A stretch of 42,863 nt of DNA from a bacterium (GTDB lineage Bacteria; Patescibacteriota; Minisyncoccia; Sungbacterales; HO2-52-23): NCBI GenBank assembly GCA_030697525.1, contig JAUYPW010000018.1, forward strand, positions 1-42,863, given 5' to 3'. The notes beneath the pieces are model-generated. The model was not told where the DNA came from and did not search any database. It saw only the letters and a program-made list of their open reading frames with translations. A program made the translations under genes and the position numbers. The stretch's first letter is position 1, and each line of letters starts with the position of its first letter. Positions 12,087 to 24,880 of the stretch are shown here, piece by piece.

Positions 12087-12428
12087 ATGGAAGAGGGAAA
12101 GACAACCAATCAACCCGGGCCGCCCCCCACGACAAGCATAGGGGAAAGCCCAGTGTGTCTTTGCTGTACGCCGGCTCAACCTCTTGAGCCGCCTGCGGCA
12201 GGAGAAAACCTTTGGGTCTGCCCGGTGGAGCAGACCAAGTACGAATATAATCCGGCTGATGGTACGGTGAGACGAGTTGGTGGAGGCATTAGTTCTGGTC
12301 CTGTTTCCGGCGGAGGCCAACCTTCTCCGGAAATGCCGACCCAGAAGACCACCACCAGTTTATTCCCCGAAGCGCCTCCGGCGAGGAAGACTCGTCAAGT
12401 GAATCCTGACGACCCGTTTGCGAGGTGA
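12087..12428 (+). CDS. Small Cys-rich (Zn-ribbon-like) protein with Gly/Pro-rich tail
   Basis: 113 aa; VCLCCTPAQPLEPPAAGENLWVCPVEQTKYEYNPADGTVRRVGGG resembles the repeats in the upstream protein; RBS gaaaggaga; stop overlaps the E2 start. Confidence 0.7.
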   Translation: MEEGKTTNQPGPPPTTSIGESPVCLCCTPAQPLEPPAAGENLWVCPVEQTKYEYNPADGTVRRVGGGISSGPVSGGGQPSPEMPTQKTTTSLFPEAPPARKTRQVNPDDPFAR

Positions 12429-13123
12429 TGGATTTGGCCAAGAAATTTATCCATACCAAAACAGTCGTGTCTGATTCGGGAACGGAAAATGTTTCTTGGG
12501 AAGTTGATATCGGTGCATTGAAACAAGCCCGGGGGAACGACTGGATTAGCGATTATCCCCAGTTGATAGAGCGCGATTTAAAAGAAATGTCGGAAATGTT
12601 TCCCCGCTGGATCTTGGTTGGAGGAAAAGAAACCAATCCGGCATCTTGTTCAGAATGTGGAGAGTACGTAGTTCCTACCGAGGGCAAAATGATGTGTCTT
12701 GCCTGCGGGGAGCCGTATACCTTAAACATAAGAGCCCTTATCTGGACCGGTCTTCTGCCTGTGCAGATAAGCGGAGTTGAAAAAGTGGAGAGAAATATAG
12801 AAAAGCTCCGTGAGAGGGGACAACTCAAACTGCCTCGTGTCAGCGGGTTTCTACTTGTGCCTATACGAATAATCTATCCGAGTGATTGGCCTCATAGTAA
12901 TCCGTCAGCTTACTACACTCAAGAATTTTTTGAATCTCTGGGTACTGGAGCACCAAGCTACAGTCATGAATATCACATGAACGGCAGTTTGAGTATGTGT
13001 CTCTTTTCCAGATGGCATGAGATGAGTATCCGTGATGTAATTCAAAACCGCATTGCTCCGCACGCTTTAGCGCAGGTAAAACTTGCTAACGGCGAGCGTC
13101 CGCAAAAATGGTTTAACGAATAG
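12428..13123 (+). CDS. E2 ubiquitin-conjugating-enzyme-like protein with inserted Zn ribbon
   Basis: YHMNGSLSMCLFSRWHEMSIRDVI matches the E2 active-site pattern HxNG..C(L)...W; upstream IRIIYPSDWPHSNPSAYY; CSEC...CLAC insert; TGATG overlap with the preceding gene. Confidence 0.8.
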   Translation: MDLAKKFIHTKTVVSDSGTENVSWEVDIGALKQARGNDWISDYPQLIERDLKEMSEMFPRWILVGGKETNPASCSECGEYVVPTEGKMMCLACGEPYTLNIRALIWTGLLPVQISGVEKVERNIEKLRERGQLKLPRVSGFLLVPIRIIYPSDWPHSNPSAYYTQEFFESLGTGAPSYSHEYHMNGSLSMCLFSRWHEMSIRDVIQNRIAPHALAQVKLANGERPQKWFNE

Positions 13124-13154
13124 TTTTACAGTTCCTTATAGAAAACAAAAAAAC

Positions 13155-13182
13155 GGGGCTGGTTGCACAGTCAACCAGCCCC
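13155..13182. terminator. Strong intergenic hairpin between E2 and JAMM genes (terminator-like)
   Basis: ggggctggttg-cacagt-caaccagcccc, 11-bp perfect stem; A-run on its 5' side gives a T-run on the minus strand, no clear T-run on plus. Confidence 0.45.
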
Positions 13183-13298
13183 AAATTCTAACTTTTTGAA
13201 TTTCTTTTCCGGTAATTTTTAAAAGATTATCGGAACTGGAAATTTAACCAGAACTTTGAAAAATGAAATACTAATATCGAAAAAAGGAGGTAGTCAAA

Positions 13299-14228
13299 AT
13301 GACCAATGTTTTTATTGCCGAGAGTGCTTGGTGCACGATTACTCGTGAAGTCAGTCACTTTGCCAATATGTCTTTCATTGGTAAGGAAGCGATAGTTTAT
13401 CCGATGTTTGGATATTTTCGCAAGGAAGATTGTTTCAAAGCTCCTTGGGAAATGCTTGAGCTTGAAGATATTGATTGTTTTGTGGTTCCATTTGCGGCAC
13501 CACCTCCAAGGGAGTTAACCGATCACGGAGCTTTTAGAGCATCGCTGAAGTTCAAGACTCCCCAAGAACGGGAAAAATTCCAACAGATTATGGGCGGATG
13601 GTCCTCTTTTTTAGACGACAAGTATTATCCGATGTTAAGGGTGGGAAATGTTCATTCCCATCAATTTGCTACGGATAAAACTTGGCCGTCTAAAGGTGGC
13701 AGTCAGACTGATTATCCGCGGATATTAAATCTCTGGAAAGATCTGAAAGAAGAGGGATTAAATACTGCTCCGGAAATAATTATATGCAAGTCCCGGTCCA
13801 AGACAGAAAAGTGGGTGGCTTGTTGTTTTGCTCTGGACAAAGATCAGGAAATAGTTGATCTGGGCCATGCCGAAATAGTTTCAGATTATCACCCATTGAT
13901 GAACAACTTGCTTACTGCCCACTACACCAAAACTAGTCTTGGACAAAAATGGGAAGAAAGACAAAAGAAAATTTTGCCGGGCATTGAAAATATAAAAACC
14001 TTCAATTCCGGCTGGAGAAGTTTTGCCGTCAATTGTCTTTTTAACGGATATGTTTTCATCCATCTTCCGCCAACTTTCCCGCGCTGTGATTTTGTTTTGT
14101 ATCAGGTTTTCTACTCCAGAATTAAGCTTTGGGGAAGAATCTACAGATGGTATAAAAAGGATCATACTTTTAGATTTGACCTTGATGAAATTTGTTCAAA
14201 ACATATTTGGGCGGAGGTGAGGATCTAA
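13299..14228 (+). CDS. JAMM/JAB (MPN) family metalloprotease, putative deubiquitinase-like isopeptidase
   Basis: VGNVHSHQFATDKTWPSKGGSQTDYPRI: HxH...SxxD motif (H119, H121, S135, D138), inside an E2/E1 cluster; RBS aaaggaggt. Confidence 0.75.
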   Translation: MTNVFIAESAWCTITREVSHFANMSFIGKEAIVYPMFGYFRKEDCFKAPWEMLELEDIDCFVVPFAAPPPRELTDHGAFRASLKFKTPQEREKFQQIMGGWSSFLDDKYYPMLRVGNVHSHQFATDKTWPSKGGSQTDYPRILNLWKDLKEEGLNTAPEIIICKSRSKTEKWVACCFALDKDQEIVDLGHAEIVSDYHPLMNNLLTAHYTKTSLGQKWEERQKKILPGIENIKTFNSGWRSFAVNCLFNGYVFIHLPPTFPRCDFVLYQVFYSRIKLWGRIYRWYKKDHTFRFDLDEICSKHIWAEVRI

Positions 14229-14247
14229 CCACGAGAGGAGAATCAGG

Positions 14248-15897
14248 ATGAATGACCGCGACAGTTACTATGAGAGAATCAAAGCTCTGGTAGGGGATCG
14301 CTTGACTGAAAAAAGAGTGGAAGTGCTGGGAACTGGTTTTTTGAGCAAGGCAGTGGAGCTTCTTGCTTCCTGCGGAATTGTAAAATTCAATTTCTGCGCA
14401 AGCATGCGTACGTCCTTCGGCAATACAGCTCCGGCGGCTGTTGGTCTGATAAGTTATCTTGAATCACATAACCAATTTGAGGATCGTTGGGAGTTTGGAC
14501 ATTTGGATAATGGTGAACCTGATTTGATTCTCGGTGGTAATGGTTTGGATCATTGTCGATTGGCTTGTCATAAAGCCAGATATAAAAAAATTCCTTGTGT
14601 TCTTGCTTGGCGGTCTAAATCCGGTCTTACCATGATTATGGTTGTAAGCCCGGGAGAGGAAGATTTTTCTCTGGGGTTTCTTGAGAAGATGGATGATGGC
14701 TCAAAGGAAATTTCGTACATTGATTTGGTTGATCTTAACAATCAAGTGGCCAATGTTGCTAAAGCAATATTGCTTAAAGGAAGCCAGTGGGAAAGAAAAG
14801 ATTTCAACAATCTTTTTTCCGCAGGAAGAAATTTGATTATAGTAAATCATCCCACCTGGCCCTGGGCGGGAAAGTTCCTGAACCCCAAGGACCCCGAAGA
14901 TATCAAATTGCTTGAATATCGGTCGCCGAATTTTTCCTCTCTTAAGATCCATGATCTCCGTGGCCGAAAGGTCATGGTTGTGGGTCTTGGAAGTCTGGGA
15001 AGTATTGCGGCTGACCATTTTAGGGTACTGGGGGCAAGTGTCATCGGAATTGATTTCAAAGAAGTTTCTTTGTACAATCCTGTTCGCCAACTGTATTCCA
15101 CCTCTTGCGTTGGGCTTCCGAAATCCCAAGTTCTTCCTACAACACTTACTTTGCGGGAGGGAAGGTTTGAGGAAATTTTGGAGCATACTGATAAACGTCT
15201 GATTATAAAAATAAAAGACGGAAGAAGATTTACCGGCATAGACGAAAAAATTGAAGATTCTCGAGAGGGGCAGAAAAAATTTGAGGAGCTGGTGGATGAG
15301 TTTAAACCAGATTTGGTTATGCTCGCCACGGCTCACCAGTCGGAATTTCGCATGGCGCATGTTTTGCGCGAGCGCGGTATTTTGCATATCATTGCCCGCT
15401 GTTATCGTCGAGCCAAATGGTTTGAGGTAACGGCAGTTGACGGAGCAGGTGGTCCGTGTTTCGGATGCCTGCAAGGCCATCTATACACGGGAGTTGCTCC
15501 GAGTATTGAATTAACCGAAGAGGAGCAGACTCATTATGACGGAACGGTACGTTTAGATAAAATGGTGGAAGCGGAACCTGCCACGCGCATAGACACTTCT
15601 CGTTCCGCTGACGCAGCCACCAGGCTTGCTTGCGAACTTCTTGCGTCAGCCGAAAAAAGATCTGAATGGTTCAGGAAAATGATGTCGGAGGAACGCAATT
15701 GTCTTATCGGCGGCAATACCGCTGAATTCAGAGAGAAAGAAAACGACTGGGCTTACGGAATTGCATCTCCGGGTTCGGCAACCATTTATGGAGTCATAAA
15801 TTTTGTCGGATCAGAAACCGAAAAAGAAAAAACCTGTCTTTATTGCGGACGCACGCACGAAGTATTGATACACCGTGCCCCAACCCCTACATCCTAA
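14248..15897 (+). CDS. E1-like/ThiF-family adenylyltransferase
   Basis: KVMVVGLGSLGSIAADHFRVLGASVIGIDFKEVSLYNPVRQLY; GPCFGCLQG and KTCLYCG Zn-binding CxxC pairs; 549 aa with an extra N-terminal domain. Confidence 0.88.
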   Translation: MNDRDSYYERIKALVGDRLTEKRVEVLGTGFLSKAVELLASCGIVKFNFCASMRTSFGNTAPAAVGLISYLESHNQFEDRWEFGHLDNGEPDLILGGNGLDHCRLACHKARYKKIPCVLAWRSKSGLTMIMVVSPGEEDFSLGFLEKMDDGSKEISYIDLVDLNNQVANVAKAILLKGSQWERKDFNNLFSAGRNLIIVNHPTWPWAGKFLNPKDPEDIKLLEYRSPNFSSLKIHDLRGRKVMVVGLGSLGSIAADHFRVLGASVIGIDFKEVSLYNPVRQLYSTSCVGLPKSQVLPTTLTLREGRFEEILEHTDKRLIIKIKDGRRFTGIDEKIEDSREGQKKFEELVDEFKPDLVMLATAHQSEFRMAHVLRERGILHIIARCYRRAKWFEVTAVDGAGGPCFGCLQGHLYTGVAPSIELTEEEQTHYDGTVRLDKMVEAEPATRIDTSRSADAATRLACELLASAEKRSEWFRKMMSEERNCLIGGNTAEFREKENDWAYGIASPGSATIYGVINFVGSETEKEKTCLYCGRTHEVLIHRAPTPTS

Positions 15898-15910
15898 AGG
15901 AGGTGTAAGG

Positions 15911-18139
15911 ATGAACAATTCGAAAAGCGGCGAAACCGCTTTTGTCCGAGTAATTAGAGAAGCGCCGCAGATAGCCGGGCGTTTCGGAGTTAATTTTGCG
16001 ATTGCGAGCTACAACACCTTCCATCTTCTCCTGTCGCTTATGCGAAACGATAGGTGGCTGGCTATGTGGCTGGATAAAAAAGGAGTAAGCATAAACGATC
16101 TTCTTTCTTGCGGGCCGGAAGATAATAATTTGGAACCTTTCTCCATGGGAATGCTTTTGGCCAAAGCAAGAAAATTGGCTGAAAGTAATGGTGTGGAAAG
16201 ACACCCAATACATTTACTATTTGCGATCTTGAGCTTTGGGGAAGAGGCTGTAGCCAAAAGAGTTTTGTGGAGACAAAATTGTGATCCATCAGCTCTTTTG
16301 CGGGAAATAGTTTCCAACCACTGGCATCGCAGTCCTCCGCAGTTAAACTCGGAGGAAGATGCCGATGGTGTTCTGGAAACAATGGGTATTGATTACACCA
16401 AACTTGCTCGTGAAGGTAAATTAAAGCCGGTGATTGGACGCGGCAAAGAAATAAGAAGCGTTATAGAAATTTTAGCTAGAAAAGATACCGCCGGTTATGA
16501 TGAGGCTATAAACAACCCCGTTCTCTTGGGAGAACCCGGAGTGGGGAAGTCGGCCATCGCCAAAGGATTGGCAAGGTTGATTGCTGATCGCGATCTATCT
16601 GTTCAACCCTTTTGGGAATACAGAGTAGTTTACCTCAAACTCTCGGATATGCAGGCAGGAACTGGGATAAGAGGATCTTTGGAGCTTCGCTTCAAGGCTT
16701 TGCTGGAGGAGTGTTCGGGAGGCCAGCCCACAATTCTTTTTCTTGACGAACTTCATACTATTGTGGGGCTTGGCCGGACGGAAGGATCATCCGGAATGGA
16801 AGAATCTCTGAAGCCTGCTTTAGCCGAAGGACTTTCCTGCATAGGGGCTACCACCACCGATGAGTGGCGGGAAAAAGTGGAAACAAAAAATCCGCCCTTT
16901 GCCGAACGCTGGATTCAGGTAAGAGTTGAAGAGCCGTCTTCCGAGGATATGATGCAGATTCTTCTGGGATCGGCGGACGATCTTGCCAGAAGGCACCTAG
17001 TTCATTTTTCAGGAGAGGTTTTATCGGCCGCAATTTCTCTGGGTGAAAAGTATCTGCATTATGTCGCTTCTCCGCGCAGAGAAATTGATCAGATACTAAA
17101 CGGTGTTGGGGCTAAAGTTAAACTTGCCAACAGAGTTATGGCTTCAGTTGAAGATGTTGCGGAGGTAATTTCGCAAATTGTAGGGTATGAAGTCAAACCT
17201 GATGCTGAAGAAAGACAAAAAGTTGCCAATGCCTATGAAATTCTATCTACCGAAATAATCGGGCAGAACGATGCCATGCAAAAATTTGCCGACTTGATTA
17301 TTCGGCACAGGAGCGGCGTGCAAGATGAAGAAAAACCGCCGGTCATGCTTTTACTCGGACCCACAGGTGTCGGAAAAACTTTGTCCGCAAGACTTGTTGC
17401 TAAACACTTCTTTGCCGACAAATTGATCAGGGTGGATATGTCGGAATTTATGGAACGGCATACCGCAAGCAGACTCACAGGAGCTCCGCCAGGATATATC
17501 GGGTACGACAAACCAGGGCAACTGACTGAACCCTTGCGAAGATTCGGTAGAGCCGTGGTCTTGCTGGATGAAATAGAAAAAGCTCATGATGATGTGTTTA
17601 ATATACTGCTCCAGCTCTTTGACGAAGGACGCCTGACCGACGGCAAGGGTCGAACGGTGAGCGGGAGAAATTGTATTTTTCTCATGACCTCTAACCTTGG
17701 TTCAGAATACTTTGCCGGAAGCGTAAAGAGCATAGGATTTGGAGCCACTGCAGAGCAAAGTTCTTTTGCCGAAGCCAAAAAGAAGGCCTTAGAAGAAGCT
17801 CGTCGTCACTTCCGGCCGGAAATATTTAACCGTATTGACGAGATTATAGTTTTTGATCGTCTGGAAAAAATGGCGGTTGAGACTATCGCAAAAAATCTTC
17901 TGCAGAACGAAAAAGAGAAATGCGCCCATCTGGGATTTGCGCTTGAGTGGGAAGCCGATGTAATCAACTTTTTAGTTGAGCAAGGGTTTAGTCCCACATA
18001 TGGAGCGCGGCCGATGAAGCGCCAAATAATGAAGAGTGTCCAAAATATTTTGGCCAAACCAATTCTTCGCGGAGAAATAATTCGCGGAGACAGGATAAAA
18101 TTGTTCGTTCAAAATAATTTAATTTGTTGGAGAAAATAA
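15911..18139 (+). CDS. ClpA/ClpC-type double AAA+ unfoldase with Clp N-domain and IGF loop
   Basis: GEPGVGKSAIAKGLA, ILFLDELHTIVGLG, GPTGVGKTLSARLVA, VVLLDEIEKAH, SIGFG after MTSNLGSEYF; RBS aaaggaggtg before ATG 15911. Confidence 0.92.
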   Translation: MNNSKSGETAFVRVIREAPQIAGRFGVNFAIASYNTFHLLLSLMRNDRWLAMWLDKKGVSINDLLSCGPEDNNLEPFSMGMLLAKARKLAESNGVERHPIHLLFAILSFGEEAVAKRVLWRQNCDPSALLREIVSNHWHRSPPQLNSEEDADGVLETMGIDYTKLAREGKLKPVIGRGKEIRSVIEILARKDTAGYDEAINNPVLLGEPGVGKSAIAKGLARLIADRDLSVQPFWEYRVVYLKLSDMQAGTGIRGSLELRFKALLEECSGGQPTILFLDELHTIVGLGRTEGSSGMEESLKPALAEGLSCIGATTTDEWREKVETKNPPFAERWIQVRVEEPSSEDMMQILLGSADDLARRHLVHFSGEVLSAAISLGEKYLHYVASPRREIDQILNGVGAKVKLANRVMASVEDVAEVISQIVGYEVKPDAEERQKVANAYEILSTEIIGQNDAMQKFADLIIRHRSGVQDEEKPPVMLLLGPTGVGKTLSARLVAKHFFADKLIRVDMSEFMERHTASRLTGAPPGYIGYDKPGQLTEPLRRFGRAVVLLDEIEKAHDDVFNILLQLFDEGRLTDGKGRTVSGRNCIFLMTSNLGSEYFAGSVKSIGFGATAEQSSFAEAKKKALEEARRHFRPEIFNRIDEIIVFDRLEKMAVETIAKNLLQNEKEKCAHLGFALEWEADVINFLVEQGFSPTYGARPMKRQIMKSVQNILAKPILRGEIIRGDRIKLFVQNNLICWRK

Positions 18140-19563: not shown

Positions 19564-20304
19564 ATGAGCAGAGGATTTTTGGGAGAGTTACGATTTAAAG
19601 TTCCGGTCAAGACGGTGGAGTATGGGCTGGCAGGCAAAAGGCCGGGTTTGGTGATTGTAGATGTATTGCGAGGTTTTTGTGAGACGGGATGCGGGCCGCT
19701 GGCTCCTCCTGTGTATGATCCTGAAATGCAATCCATGGTGATTCTCGTTAACAGTACTGCTCATGAATTTTACGGTAGAAAATTACCCATCATTGTATTG
19801 AAGGACTTACACAAACCCGGTGTCCCCGAACCACCTTATCCTACTCATTGTGAGGAAGGTAGCGGACAGGAAGAATTAATGCCTGAATTGAAATGGACCG
19901 AGGATCCGCGGGTGGCAGAAGTCATGCCAAAAGACTGCATAAATGGTTTTGTCGGTGGAATAGAGGGTGGTGGACACAGCAAAGTTCTTCGCTGGGTAGC
20001 CCGTGAAAATATTGACACTCTAGTAGTCGTGGGTGACTGCACGGATATATGTGTTTTAGATTTCGTGGCTACTATGCTAAGTGTTCGCAATCATCGGATT
20101 TTTGGAGATATTCCACTGGCCGGAAAACTGAAAGATGTTGTTGTTTACGTTCCCGCTTGCGCGACCTATGATCTTCCCCGAAATGTTGCTGAAAAATTAG
20201 GACTTCCTCCGGAAGCCGCTCATCCCCGGAACATAATGCAACACATGGGCCTAAAGATTATGGCCGATCGAGGAGCAATTTTGGCCCACGAATTGATTTT
20301 TTAA
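19564..20304 (+). CDS. pncA: Nicotinamidase-like isochorismatase-family hydrolase
   Basis: Intact VIVDVLRGF Asp, KDLHKP...PTHCEEGSGQEELMPEL metal-site-like segment, PKDCINGF Lys, VGDCTDICV Cys; located with NAD genes. Confidence 0.75.
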   Translation: MSRGFLGELRFKVPVKTVEYGLAGKRPGLVIVDVLRGFCETGCGPLAPPVYDPEMQSMVILVNSTAHEFYGRKLPIIVLKDLHKPGVPEPPYPTHCEEGSGQEELMPELKWTEDPRVAEVMPKDCINGFVGGIEGGGHSKVLRWVARENIDTLVVVGDCTDICVLDFVATMLSVRNHRIFGDIPLAGKLKDVVVYVPACATYDLPRNVAEKLGLPPEAAHPRNIMQHMGLKIMADRGAILAHELIF

Positions 20305-20329: not shown

Positions 20330-20354
20330 GGACCGCAAAACACGCGGTCCTTTT
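20330..20354 (+). terminator. Rho-independent terminator
   Basis: ggaccgc-aaaacac-gcggtcc followed by tttt. Confidence 0.65.
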
Positions 20355-20357
20355 AAT

Positions 20358-20386
20358 TTGACGTTTTTTGCTTAATATGTTAAAAT
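20358..20386 (+). promoter_or_regulatory. Sigma70-like promoter for the NadD-NadK fusion gene
   Basis: TTGACG, 17-nt spacer, TAAAAT. Confidence 0.55.
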
Positions 20387-20446: not shown

Positions 20447-21829
20447 ATGAAAAAAATCGCTTTTTTGGGTGGCACATTTAACCCTCCGCACAATGGGCAT
20501 GTGAAAATAGGCAGAAGGCTTACAGAAGAATTTGATGATGTTGTAGTTATGCCTTGCGGGCCTGGGCGGGAAAAACCATCCGCGGATATGGTGGATCCGA
20601 TTTATCTGGCAACTATGTGCGACATGGCTTTTGGCGCCATACCCAAAGTGCGGGTTGATTTAAGCGACCTTGAACGGGATAGCTTTACTCGCACCCATGC
20701 GCTGGTAAAGAGGTTTTCTAAAGAGGGTGAAGTCTGGGTTGTTATCGGAAGCGATCTTCTTCAGCCCAAAGATGGCGCCAAATCCGAAATTCATACATGG
20801 GAAAAAGGAGAGTGGCTTTGGAATAATGTTGGGTTTGTGGTAGTTGAACGGCCAGATTATCCGGTTGGCTTGCAAAATCTCCCCCGTTTGGTAAAAGTTT
20901 TTCCAAAAATTTCCAATCTTTCCAGCTCGTCTATGAGGCAGAGGATTTTTAATCGGGAGTCAATTAAAGGCTTCGTTCCGCCGCGGATAGAAAAATATAT
21001 TCAGCGGCATCGCCTTTATACTGGAAGACCTCCTAGTATAGAAGGCAAGTTGATGAAGCTGGATAATCCCAGGGCTCTTATTTTCGCTGATGATTATAAT
21101 ATAGAAGCCCTAAGAGCAGCCGAAGGTCTCCGGCATTTGGAAGACCTAAATGATCCAGATTTTGTCCTTATGCTTGGTGGAGACGGCACGGCGTTTCGGG
21201 CTATTCGCCGTGATTGGCGCAAAAGACTTCCATTTTTTGGAGTCAACTTGGGACACGAAGGATTCCTGTTGAACAAAAAGAAATTTCTGGAAAATTATGA
21301 TTTCAAACAGATGAATGTTTGGCAGGTGCCTCTCTTGAATGTGAGGATCAAAGACGTCAATGGAAATTGGGAGAGAACTGTCGCCTTTAACGACGTGTGG
21401 ATGGAAAGAGACGGCGGGCATATGGCGCGGATACGAGTTCTGGTGAATGGAAAGATACACGAGGAACATCTTCGTTGCGATTCAGTGCTGGTCTCAACCG
21501 CGGCAGGTTCTACGGCCTACGCGATGAGACTGGGTGTGACACCGATGTATTGGTTTATACCATCTCTAGCTATGGCCGCATCAGCCGTCTGGGATCCGCC
21601 TTATCAGAGGTCCTGGAATCTGGACATGGCGAGCAAAATTAAACTTAAGGCTTTGGAAACAGAAAGAGCGCCAGTGAGAGTTTTTGTGGACGGCGTTAAA
21701 TATGAAAATGTGTTGGAAGTAAGAACGAGAGTTAGTCGCATTGCCGCGGTTGAGCTCGCTTTTCATCCGGAACATGATGTTACTGAAAGAGTTCAGAATA
21801 TACATCAAATATTAAAAGAGGGAAAATAA
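20447..21829 (+). CDS. Fusion protein: nicotinate-nucleotide adenylyltransferase (NadD) plus NAD kinase (NadK)
   Basis: N-term GGTFNPPHNGHVKIGRR and SSSMRQRI (NadD); C-term VLMLGGDGTAFRAIR, GVNLGHEGFL, STAAGSTAYAMRLG (NadK). Confidence 0.9.
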   Translation: MKKIAFLGGTFNPPHNGHVKIGRRLTEEFDDVVVMPCGPGREKPSADMVDPIYLATMCDMAFGAIPKVRVDLSDLERDSFTRTHALVKRFSKEGEVWVVIGSDLLQPKDGAKSEIHTWEKGEWLWNNVGFVVVERPDYPVGLQNLPRLVKVFPKISNLSSSSMRQRIFNRESIKGFVPPRIEKYIQRHRLYTGRPPSIEGKLMKLDNPRALIFADDYNIEALRAAEGLRHLEDLNDPDFVLMLGGDGTAFRAIRRDWRKRLPFFGVNLGHEGFLLNKKKFLENYDFKQMNVWQVPLLNVRIKDVNGNWERTVAFNDVWMERDGGHMARIRVLVNGKIHEEHLRCDSVLVSTAAGSTAYAMRLGVTPMYWFIPSLAMAASAVWDPPYQRSWNLDMASKIKLKALETERAPVRVFVDGVKYENVLEVRTRVSRIAAVELAFHPEHDVTERVQNIHQILKEGK

Positions 21830-21832
21830 ACT

Positions 21833-21867
21833 TTGTCGGTGGCGGCCACTTGCGCCGCTACCGACAA
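21833..21867 (+). terminator. Hairpin/terminator after nadD-nadK
   Basis: ttgtcggtggcgg...ccgctaccgacaa with one mismatch, followed by attttttc. Confidence 0.55.
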
Positions 21868-21974
21868 CAAATTTTTTCAGACAGAGAATTGAAACTAAAA
21901 ATTTGGTTTTAGTTCTCTGTCCCGAAATTGAGGACAGCGTTCTTTAAACAAAAAAAAGAAAGGACAAACTGACC

Positions 21975-22550
21975 ATGAAAATGGAAAGAGAAAATGTCTT
22001 TGAAGGAAGATTTGTAGATGTGCAAATAAGGAGTACGTCTGATCAGAAAATAGAAGTGGTGGTGTCTTGCAATTCGGTAGCGGTGTTGGTTTATAATCGC
22101 CGTTTAAGGAAGGCGGTTTTGGTTCAGCAGTCGCGTTTGGCTATGGTTTCTGCCAATAATCGAAAAGGAATTATCACTGAAGTTATAGCCGGAAGGATGA
22201 ATAAATACAACCTGACTCTTAAGGGCTTGATTGCGCTGGAAATAAAAGAGGAAGTAGGGGTTGATGTTCCGGAAAATGACATCATAGTCATAAATGGCCT
22301 GCAATCCTTAGCCATGTCTCCGGGTATGGCCACAGAGCGATGCTATCTTGCTCTTGCTGAAATTCCAGCCAGTTCTTTCCCCAAAGAAGGATCTGTCTTT
22401 GGGGTACAAGAAGAAGGAGAAAGCACAAGGCCAGTTATTTATTCCTTTGAAGAACTGGATGCGTTAGTTTATGAGGATATGAAAACGCTTGCGCTGGTTC
22501 AGTTCTTTTTGCGGGGAATTGAAAGAGAAGAAAGGAGTCGTGTGCGATGA
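21975..22550 (+). CDS. Nudix hydrolase-like protein (ADP-ribose pyrophosphatase type)
   Basis: EVIAGRMN...ALEIKEEVGVDV partial Nudix box; LAMSPGMATERCYLALAEI typical downstream segment. Confidence 0.75.
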   Translation: MKMERENVFEGRFVDVQIRSTSDQKIEVVVSCNSVAVLVYNRRLRKAVLVQQSRLAMVSANNRKGIITEVIAGRMNKYNLTLKGLIALEIKEEVGVDVPENDIIVINGLQSLAMSPGMATERCYLALAEIPASSFPKEGSVFGVQEEGESTRPVIYSFEELDALVYEDMKTLALVQFFLRGIEREERSRVR

Positions 22551-23782
22551 AGGATGAGCCGATTATTCAGTCTCTGCTTGATCTGGACTTGTATAAGTTG
22601 ACGATGGCGCAGATGGTTTTTGATCAGCACTTTGGTATGTTTGTGAAGTATGCTTTCAAAAATCGTACTAAAAAAGTGCGCTTGGCGGAGCATGTAGATG
22701 TTGGGGAGTTACGAGAGCAATTAGACCATGTTCGCGATTTAAGGTTTTCCAGAAAAGAATTGCGATATTTGCAGAGTATAAGGGTTGATGGCAAGCAGAT
22801 ATTTTTTGACCCCGAATTTTTCGGATTTTTGGAAGAGCTAAAACTGCCTCCTTATGAACTGAATATGGTGGATGGCGATTTTCAGATAACGGTTTATGCT
22901 CTGTGGCCTCTTGGGATTTTCTGGGAGACTATCATACTTTCTGTGGTGAACGAACTTTATTACAAGTCTCTCTTTGGCCGCTTGTCTCTTTTCAGAGTTA
23001 TGGTTGAGGGCCAACGCAGGTTGACTGAGAAAATGAAGATACTTGAGGAAAATCCGGATATCAGGTTTAGCGAATTCGGAACCCGTCGGCGTTTCAGCAG
23101 AAGCTGGCAGAAGTCTGTTGTGGAAACTCTTGCCCTGATTCTTCCGGCCGGGCAACTTCTCGGCACGTCCAATGTGAAGCTCGCTATGGATTACGGACAG
23201 CAGCCCATAGGCACGATGGCTCATGAGTTGTTTATGGTATATCAATCTTTGAATAATCGGAGTGACGAAGAAATTCGCAACTCCCACAACAAAGTTTTGC
23301 GTGATTGGTATAACTTTTACGGTTGGCCACTCTCTATTGCTCTTACTGATACCTGCGGATCTGATTTCTTTTTCCGCGATATGACCGAAGGGCAGGCAAG
23401 ACAGTGGAAAGGCTTGCGCCAAGATTCCGGAGATCCGATTGCTTTCGGAGAGAAGGCGATTAAATTCTACGAGAGTCACGGTATTGGTCCACACGAGAAA
23501 CTTTTGGTTTTCAGCGATGGATTGGATATTGGAATGATTTTGAAGATTTATAATCATTTCAAAGATCGGATCAAGGTGAGCTTCGGCTGGGGGACAAATT
23601 TAACCAATGACTTGGGTCCCGGATCTTTATCGCTCGTGGTTAAATCGGTTGAAGCCAACGGCCATGGTCTGGTAAAACTTAGCGACAATTTAGCCAAGGC
23701 TACCGGTAAGCCAGAAGATGTGGAAAGATTTAAAAGAATTTTCGGGTATGAAGGTGAAAATTATCAGGAGTGTAAGTATTAA
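22547..23782 (+). CDS. pncB: Nicotinate phosphoribosyltransferase
   Basis: IIQSLLDLDLYKLTMAQMVF, FGTRRRFS, LLGTSNVKLAMDYGQQPIGTMAHE, GLRQDSGDPIAFG, FGWGTNLTND. Confidence 0.95.
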   Translation: MKDEPIIQSLLDLDLYKLTMAQMVFDQHFGMFVKYAFKNRTKKVRLAEHVDVGELREQLDHVRDLRFSRKELRYLQSIRVDGKQIFFDPEFFGFLEELKLPPYELNMVDGDFQITVYALWPLGIFWETIILSVVNELYYKSLFGRLSLFRVMVEGQRRLTEKMKILEENPDIRFSEFGTRRRFSRSWQKSVVETLALILPAGQLLGTSNVKLAMDYGQQPIGTMAHELFMVYQSLNNRSDEEIRNSHNKVLRDWYNFYGWPLSIALTDTCGSDFFFRDMTEGQARQWKGLRQDSGDPIAFGEKAIKFYESHGIGPHEKLLVFSDGLDIGMILKIYNHFKDRIKVSFGWGTNLTNDLGPGSLSLVVKSVEANGHGLVKLSDNLAKATGKPEDVERFKRIFGYEGENYQECKY

Positions 23783-23826: not shown

Positions 23827-23932
23827 TCTTTACTGAAGCTGCTCAAAAATGTTGGGCGTCTTCAATGAAGATAAAGAGTGCGTATCTCGCACTCTAAGAT
23901 CGTTTAAAACAAAAAAAGAGAGGAGAAAACAG

Positions 23933-24880
23933 ATGCATAATCTACTGATTTTTTCTACCCAAGCTTCCAATTATTTTTCTTTACTCATAGCCAAACACCT
24001 GGGGATATGCGGGCATGGAGAAATTGTGAGGCGTGTATTTGGTGGTGGAGAAAAATATTATCGTATTGGAGTGGAAAAAAAGACTGGTCTCTTGGGTAGG
24101 GACGTGGTTTTTGTCGGAAGCGCACACACCGACGATGACTTGGAAGAGTTGTATAGAATTGGCAGAGCTCTTGTCGGATACGGAGCGCGACGAATTATTT
24201 TTGTCATACCATTTCTCGGGTATTCTACAATGGATAGGGCGGCAAGTCCCGGAGAGGTTGTGACAGCTAAAACAGTCGCGTGCAAATTGTCTGCCATTCC
24301 CAGCGGGGATATGCGCAACACCTTCCTTATGATGGATTTACATGTTTCTGGGCTGGTGCATTATTTTGAAGGCAACTGTCTTCGTTTTGAGCTTTCTTCC
24401 GAAGACATACTACTAGAAACCATTAAGAAGATGAATTACGCTGATAACTTTGTGGTTGGTACAGGAGACCTGGGTCGTCCAAAACTTGTTAAAATATTTG
24501 CCAAGAAGCTGGGTACAAATTTTGTTTTGGTGGACAAAGATCGGGAGTTTGAGAAGGTGGTAGCTAACGGAGTAATTGGGGATGTTCAAGGAAAATTGGT
24601 TTTTATCTACGACGACATGACGCGAAGCGGAGATACCCTGGTTGAGGCGGCTACGGTTTGTCGAAAGGCCGGAGCTGTGGCTGTGGGAGCTGTACTAAAC
24701 CACCTGGCATTAAATAATGAAGGGGTGGCAAGGAAACTTAGTAGTTCTCTGTTTGGTGTAATTTCTACAAATACCCACTCTATGAGTCGGTGTGGGGCTG
24801 TACGGAATTCAGACAAGTTTGTTATCAAAGATGTATCTGGTATATTTGCAGATTCTATAAAATCCATCCTTAACTACTGA
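23933..24880 (+). CDS. prs: Ribose-phosphate pyrophosphokinase (PRPP synthase)-like
   Basis: Phosphoribosyl-binding loop VFIYDDMTRSGDTLVEAA; IIFVIPFLGYSTMDRAASPGEVVTAKTVA; ATG 23933 with RBS gagaggag. Confidence 0.88.
   Translation: MHNLLIFSTQASNYFSLLIAKHLGICGHGEIVRRVFGGGEKYYRIGVEKKTGLLGRDVVFVGSAHTDDDLEELYRIGRALVGYGARRIIFVIPFLGYSTMDRAASPGEVVTAKTVACKLSAIPSGDMRNTFLMMDLHVSGLVHYFEGNCLRFELSSEDILLETIKKMNYADNFVVGTGDLGRPKLVKIFAKKLGTNFVLVDKDREFEKVVANGVIGDVQGKLVFIYDDMTRSGDTLVEAATVCRKAGAVAVGAVLNHLALNNEGVARKLSSSLFGVISTNTHSMSRCGAVRNSDKFVIKDVSGIFADSIKSILNY

Follow-up and report, generated by a model that had tools for sequence, protein, structure and literature searches.

We describe here a 460-aa protein of a member of the Sungbacterales (Patescibacteria) that is in all likelihood a bifunctional enzyme, with nicotinate-nucleotide adenylyltransferase (NadD) and NAD kinase (NadK) activities predicted from its sequence and structural model. 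Its gene lies on contig JAUYPW010000018.1 (assembly GCA_030697525.1), the whole 42,863 nt of which are referred to hereafter as the window. NadD and NadK are as a rule two separate enzymes, both of them essential, and the step of NadE (NaAD to NAD) lies between theirs. The fusion thus joins two non-consecutive steps of the pathway, as had been claimed in an earlier note made from the letters of this DNA. In the scheme that we propose, the N-terminal domain would adenylate NaMN to NaAD, a separate NadE would amidate NaAD to NAD, and the C-terminal domain would phosphorylate NAD to NADP. The same fusion has a sparse distribution: some 30 genomes, each assembled separately and together representing at least seven phyla of bacteria, carry it. 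An NCBIfam scan of the window protein matched the two halves separately and returned no model covering the NadD-NadK fusion, and a literature search found no description of it, which is not proof that nobody has noticed it. The fusion is a new architecture of already known enzymes.

Domain architecture of the window protein

The gene is preceded, 6 nt upstream of its ATG, by a strong Shine-Dalgarno sequence (AGGAGGAG), and encodes in a single frame NadD and then a NadK of the fused clade described below. Domain matches, fold and motifs all agree with the earlier reading of the frame (Table 1), and the motifs quoted at the time (HNGH, IGSD, SSSMR, GGDG, NDVW and GSTAY) are present.

Table 1 Features of the window and of related loci (window positions unless a locus is named)
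Feature	Position	Strand	Basis or remark
Isochorismatase-fold protein, probable nicotinamidase (PncA)	19564..20304	+	Pfam Isochorismatase 1e-12; function inferred from context
Terminator-like hairpin, 3' of nicotinamidase-like gene, 5' of fusion	20330..20350	+	consensus scan
Sigma70-like promoter TTGACG-17-TAAAAT, TG before second hexamer	20358..20386	+	consensus scan
NadD-NadK fusion, 460 aa	20447..21829	+	one open frame, ATG 20447 to stop 21829
NadD (nicotinate-nucleotide adenylyltransferase) domain, residues 1-192	20447..21022	+	profile, PDB and motif matches
Linker, residues 193-208	21023..21070	+	AlphaFold2 pLDDT about 86-88
Compact NadK domain, residues about 209-450	21071..21796	+	profile, fold and motif matches
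Strong terminator-like hairpin, 14 pairs and T run, directly 3' of fusion	21833..21867	+	consensus scan
NUDIX hydrolase (YffH/AdpP-like)	21975..22550	+	TIGR00052 8e-11, below its cut-off
PncB nicotinate phosphoribosyltransferase	22547..23782	+	PRK05321 above cut-off
Prs ribose-phosphate pyrophosphokinase	23849..24880	+	TIGR01251 above cut-off
NadE, glutamine-dependent NAD synthetase, 558 aa	24896..26572	+	PRK13981 634 bits, above cut-off
NadE-NadD fusion, G042, 816 aa	L092:7118-9568	-	
NadE-NadD fusion, G018, 813 aa	L101:5873-8314	-	
Myxococcota fusion, NadD without GxD and SSxxxR, NadK intact	L094:7249-8763	+	
Myxococcota fusion, NadD without GxD and SSxxxR, NadK intact	L093:1004-3307	+	

The NadD half carries HNGH at residues 15-18, IGSD at 100-103 and SSSMR at 160-164. 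Residues 7-166 match Pfam CTP_transf_like above cut-off (7e-11), and B. subtilis NadD (PDB 1kam) aligns over residues 2-192 (2e-17). Curated NadD models cover residues 1-192 with scores under their strict equivalog cut-offs (TIGR00482, 85.9 bits against 112.45); of 14 well-known genomes taken as controls, archaea included, 5 likewise lack a NadD match over the TIGR00482 cut-off. With standard NadD (TIGR00482; 1kam) the window protein has in common the full-length nucleotidylyltransferase domain, HxGH with its final His, GxD and SSxxxR, whereas it differs in its fusion to NadK and in staying below the equivalog cut-off.

In the NadK half, GGDG (244-247), ND (315-316), D345, GSTAY (354-358) and D415 can be located; the catalytic residues were checked for loss and all are kept. 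Residues 235-274 match Pfam NAD_kinase (PF01513; 2e-6) above its own cut-off, the NAD_kinase_C match falls below cut-off, and PRK04761, matched over residues 230-450, scores 120.5 bits and does not reach the curated equivalog cut-off of 211. PDB matches of this half are the NadKs of M. tuberculosis, T. maritima and L. monocytogenes, and the modelled half resembles solved NAD kinases (fold comparison, E 1e-18), so that the GGDGT, N-E/D and GSTAY motifs occur together with a NAD kinase fold. A truncated NadK was considered and ruled out, the short N-terminal part being the compact form of PRK04761. Compact alphaproteobacterial NadKs (PRK04761; S. meliloti pSymB UIJ96301.1) share this short N-terminal domain as well as GGDG, N-D/E and GSTAY; the fused NadKs, in contrast, make up a distinct, strongly supported clade and always occur with a NadD domain.

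The AlphaFold2 model of the whole protein (alignment of 20 sequences) has a mean pLDDT of 88.7 and a pTM of 0.89. This pTM, together with the pLDDT of the linker, suggests, without proving it, that the two domains are held in a fixed arrangement. An internal ATG at codon 203 (21053-21055), where the NadK part begins, is preceded at a distance of 7 nt by GAAGG and could serve as an internal start in the window only, as none was seen in the fusion of G077.

Gene neighbourhood and transcription

The fusion is located in a NAD-salvage cluster (Table 1) in which PRPP, the product of Prs, would serve as the substrate supply for PncB, and NadE is found where the earlier note had placed it. As judged from the gene content, the cluster and the fusion together would cover every step that leads from nicotinamide or nicotinate through to NADP. 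Since the fusion is bracketed by terminator-like hairpins, it probably forms its own transcript, apart from nadE. A sigma70-like promoter match lies between the upstream hairpin and the fusion, in a region where the number of such matches is near chance. The downstream spacer, taken whole, has a z of -9.8, and within 21868-21974, beyond the terminator-like hairpin, there is a second long one of 19 pairs.

Elsewhere in the window, three consecutive genes (12425-15897) appear to encode E2-like, JAMM-like (HSHQ...SQTD) and E1/ThiF proteins, with a Pfam match for ThiF only. These constitute a possible bacterial ubiquitin-like conjugation set, immediately upstream of a ClpA/B-type ATPase gene (15875-18139).

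Relationship of the fusion to NadE

In all four fusion-bearing Patescibacteria (the window, L021, L022 and L086; the clusters of G077, G007 and G390 included) nadE belongs to the same cluster as the fusion, and this is also the case in three Myxococcota/Deltaproteobacteria (G503, G505 and G740), with nadE only 13 nt after the fusion in G740. In G189 the fusion's position before PncB-Prs-NadE is occupied by an unfused NadD from its subfamily. Further to that, two Patescibacteria (G042 and G018) have NadE fused to a C-terminal NadD of the subfamily to which the window fusion belongs. By the gene-fusion argument, NadE-NadD and NadD-NadK fusions link NadE to NadD and NadD to NadK, so that coupling along NadD-NadE-NadK is indirectly supported. 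The flanks read around the fusions of Verrucomicrobia, Acidobacteria and Planctomycetes yielded no nadE, with GC-rich loci covered only through similarity to few reference proteins. The proposal of the earlier note, that the fusion is coupled to NadE, therefore fares unevenly: clustering in Patescibacteria and Myxococcota/Deltaproteobacteria and the NadE-NadD fusions speak for it, whereas the three phyla with no nadE nearby and the hairpins in the window, which suggest separate transcription, speak against it. We regard physical coupling to NadE as a tentative reading of these gene arrangements, with the balance somewhat against it.

A neutral origin of the joint competes with the coupling part of our interpretation, and with that part only; we give it slightly less than an even chance. 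The fusion would then have arisen from two neighbouring genes through loss of an overlapping stop, the domains would act independently and the joint would provide nothing but co-expression. Such a starting point exists among relatives, where adjacent pairs overlap by 4 nt: in G029 the end of a gene for this NadD subfamily runs into the start of nadK, and in G067 nadK and nadD are adjacent and overlapping. An overlapping pair of this kind is likely the precursor state of the fusion. Many lineages, moreover, have the fusion far from nadE. However, neutrality sits less well with the retention of one fused NadK clade over at least seven phyla, with the high-confidence two-domain model, and with the separate joining of the same NadD subfamily to NadE.

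Going beyond pairwise coupling, NadD proteins of this subfamily, joined to NadK in one lineage and to NadE in another, might be the centre of a complex for the last steps of NAD(P) assembly. Such a complex would keep the conversion of NaMN to NADP in one place, with local hand-over or balance of NaAD and NAD; in genomes with a second NadD, the fused one might have turned into a sensor that sets NadK activity. This broader picture is speculative and rather improbable.

Some neighbourhoods recur around these genes. The NAD clusters of G077 (L021:10336-13771) and G189 (L091:9613-15529) lie beside PP2C phosphatase-, protein kinase- and vWA-like genes, as assigned by eye, and NrtR is present in the neighbourhood of the G077 cluster. 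At L086, L090 and L101, genes of the NadD subfamily have as neighbours a gene resembling that of adenylosuccinate synthetase and one for a conserved protein of about 310 aa, with a vWA-like protein (by eye) at L090 and L101 too, making a second recurring neighbourhood.

Copy number and variation of the NadD domain

In the genome from which the window derives, the fusion is the sole NadK match, and NadD matches are confined to the fusion plus one 20-bit partial match. Standalone NadD is absent from 14 of 28 tabulated fusion genomes, about half having one, and most fusion genomes are without a second clear NadK. As the only detectable NadD and NadK of its genome, the window fusion must supply both steps, as would any fusion in such sole-copy genomes, unless products are imported or genes lie outside the assemblies.

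Invariant positions in 22 aligned members comprise H18, R164, GGDG, N315, D316, D345, G354, S355 and Y358. The Gly of HxGH is usually His across these members, with the final His kept; most of the family thus has GxHH in place of the HxGH of standard NadD, and the window protein retains the canonical HNGH. GxD is lost from the fused NadD in 8 of 28 members, L051 and L094 being examples of a degraded motif, and in two Myxococcota fusions with intact NadK it is missing along with SSxxxR (Table 1). The fused NadD, judging by these motifs, is probably not always catalytic.

It is accordingly conceivable that in part of the family NadD is a non-catalytic nucleotide sensor regulating NadK, synthesis being left to a separate NadD. 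Seven of the eight members without GxD come from genomes with a separate NadD (Fisher p 0.03, for a motif chosen after viewing and without correction for kinship; p 0.25 under a stricter rule that includes Ser-Ser-xxx-Arg as well). Scores against the NadD model are lower, in bits, for members whose genome also has a standalone NadD (p 0.001, not corrected for kinship), and the constancy of H18 and R164 also fits a sensor. Too few kinship-independent pairs, however, stand behind the association of GxD loss with standalone NadD, and we consider a sensor role rather unlikely for that part of the family. It cannot apply to the window member, which has every motif kept and no other NadD in its genome. 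For that protein, the predicted two-enzyme reading is the one that we retain.

Distribution and origin of the fusion

Hosts of the fusion are found in Patescibacteria, Verrucomicrobia, Planctomycetes, Myxococcota/Deltaproteobacteria, Acidobacteria, Latescibacterota and bins labelled Proteobacteria, and include one cultured isolate, Verrucomicrobium sp. BvORR106. Of 142 genomes related to that of the window, only G077 (assembled as a single contig) and G007 (Candidatus Sungiibacteriota, JACOYX010000016) were seen to carry the fusion, at 37-39% identity; in most of the 142, neither half had a detectable match. One more (G390) came from 380 genomes spread across the phylum. A scan of a contig collection with the window protein alone gave no match, single-sequence patterns being too strict, and with an alignment of three fusions it gave about 18 additional ones. 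These include phyla outside Patescibacteria, which rules out an oddity of CPR bacteria. Sampled frequencies were 4/195 in Verrucomicrobiota, 7/193 in the phylum of G511 (Myxococcota) and 3/199 in Planctomycetota. A phage or plasmid origin was also rejected, as no record of the phage and plasmid collections spans both halves, nor did a scan of viral contigs yield one.

That an assembly or sequencing fault joined two frames, as the fragmentation of the window assembly (36 contigs) might suggest, has a negligible probability, since homologues in about 30 separate assemblies, single-contig G077 and isolate BvORR106 among them, align through the junction. At L057:7382-8614, a frame change interrupts NadD in a Verrucomicrobia copy, and this may be an assembly fault.

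In trees, the fused NadK domains form one clade (support 100/99), with compact alphaproteobacterial NadKs among the nearest outsiders. The fused NadDs fall inside one 100/99 clade, together with a few standalone NadDs and the two NadE-NadD fusions of Patescibacteria, and their grouping as a single clade is not rejected (AU p 0.42). As the fused NadKs make up a single clade and the data allow the same for the fused NadDs, the trees are consistent with one fusion event being enough, followed by horizontal spread; a scattered occurrence in phyla so distant from one another suggests such transfer. We propose a single joining of nadD with a compact nadK, by the route that the adjacent overlapping pairs illustrate, after which the fusion would have spread horizontally, in Patescibacteria as part of the whole NAD-salvage cluster.

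Meaning of the fusion

Multidomain proteins of the NAD pathway are well known, among them NadR (NMN adenylyltransferase and ribosylnicotinamide kinase), NadM-NUDIX, NadD-HD and the NADP phosphatase-NAD kinase (PRK14076), and the present protein resembles them in this respect. To our knowledge, none of these architectures joins NadD to NadK. For the fused glutaminase-NadE (type F NAD synthetase), a single origin followed by partly horizontal transfer has been inferred (PMC3376133). The NadD-NadK fusion is similar in its proposed history; in contrast, glutaminase-NadE joins two parts of one step, and NadD-NadK two non-consecutive steps.

The joint would most likely set a fixed NadD:NadK ratio, and both ends of the NadD-NadE-NadK segment would be kept together, probably around NadE. 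Annotation by best hit would label the fusion genes as one enzyme only. As a natural joint of NadD and NadK without the middle step, the fusion can be used to test whether the NADP-synthesis end of the pathway is a physical unit, and NadD-NadK, NadE-NadD and the adjacent unfused genes are paired natural experiments that offer ready material for doing so.
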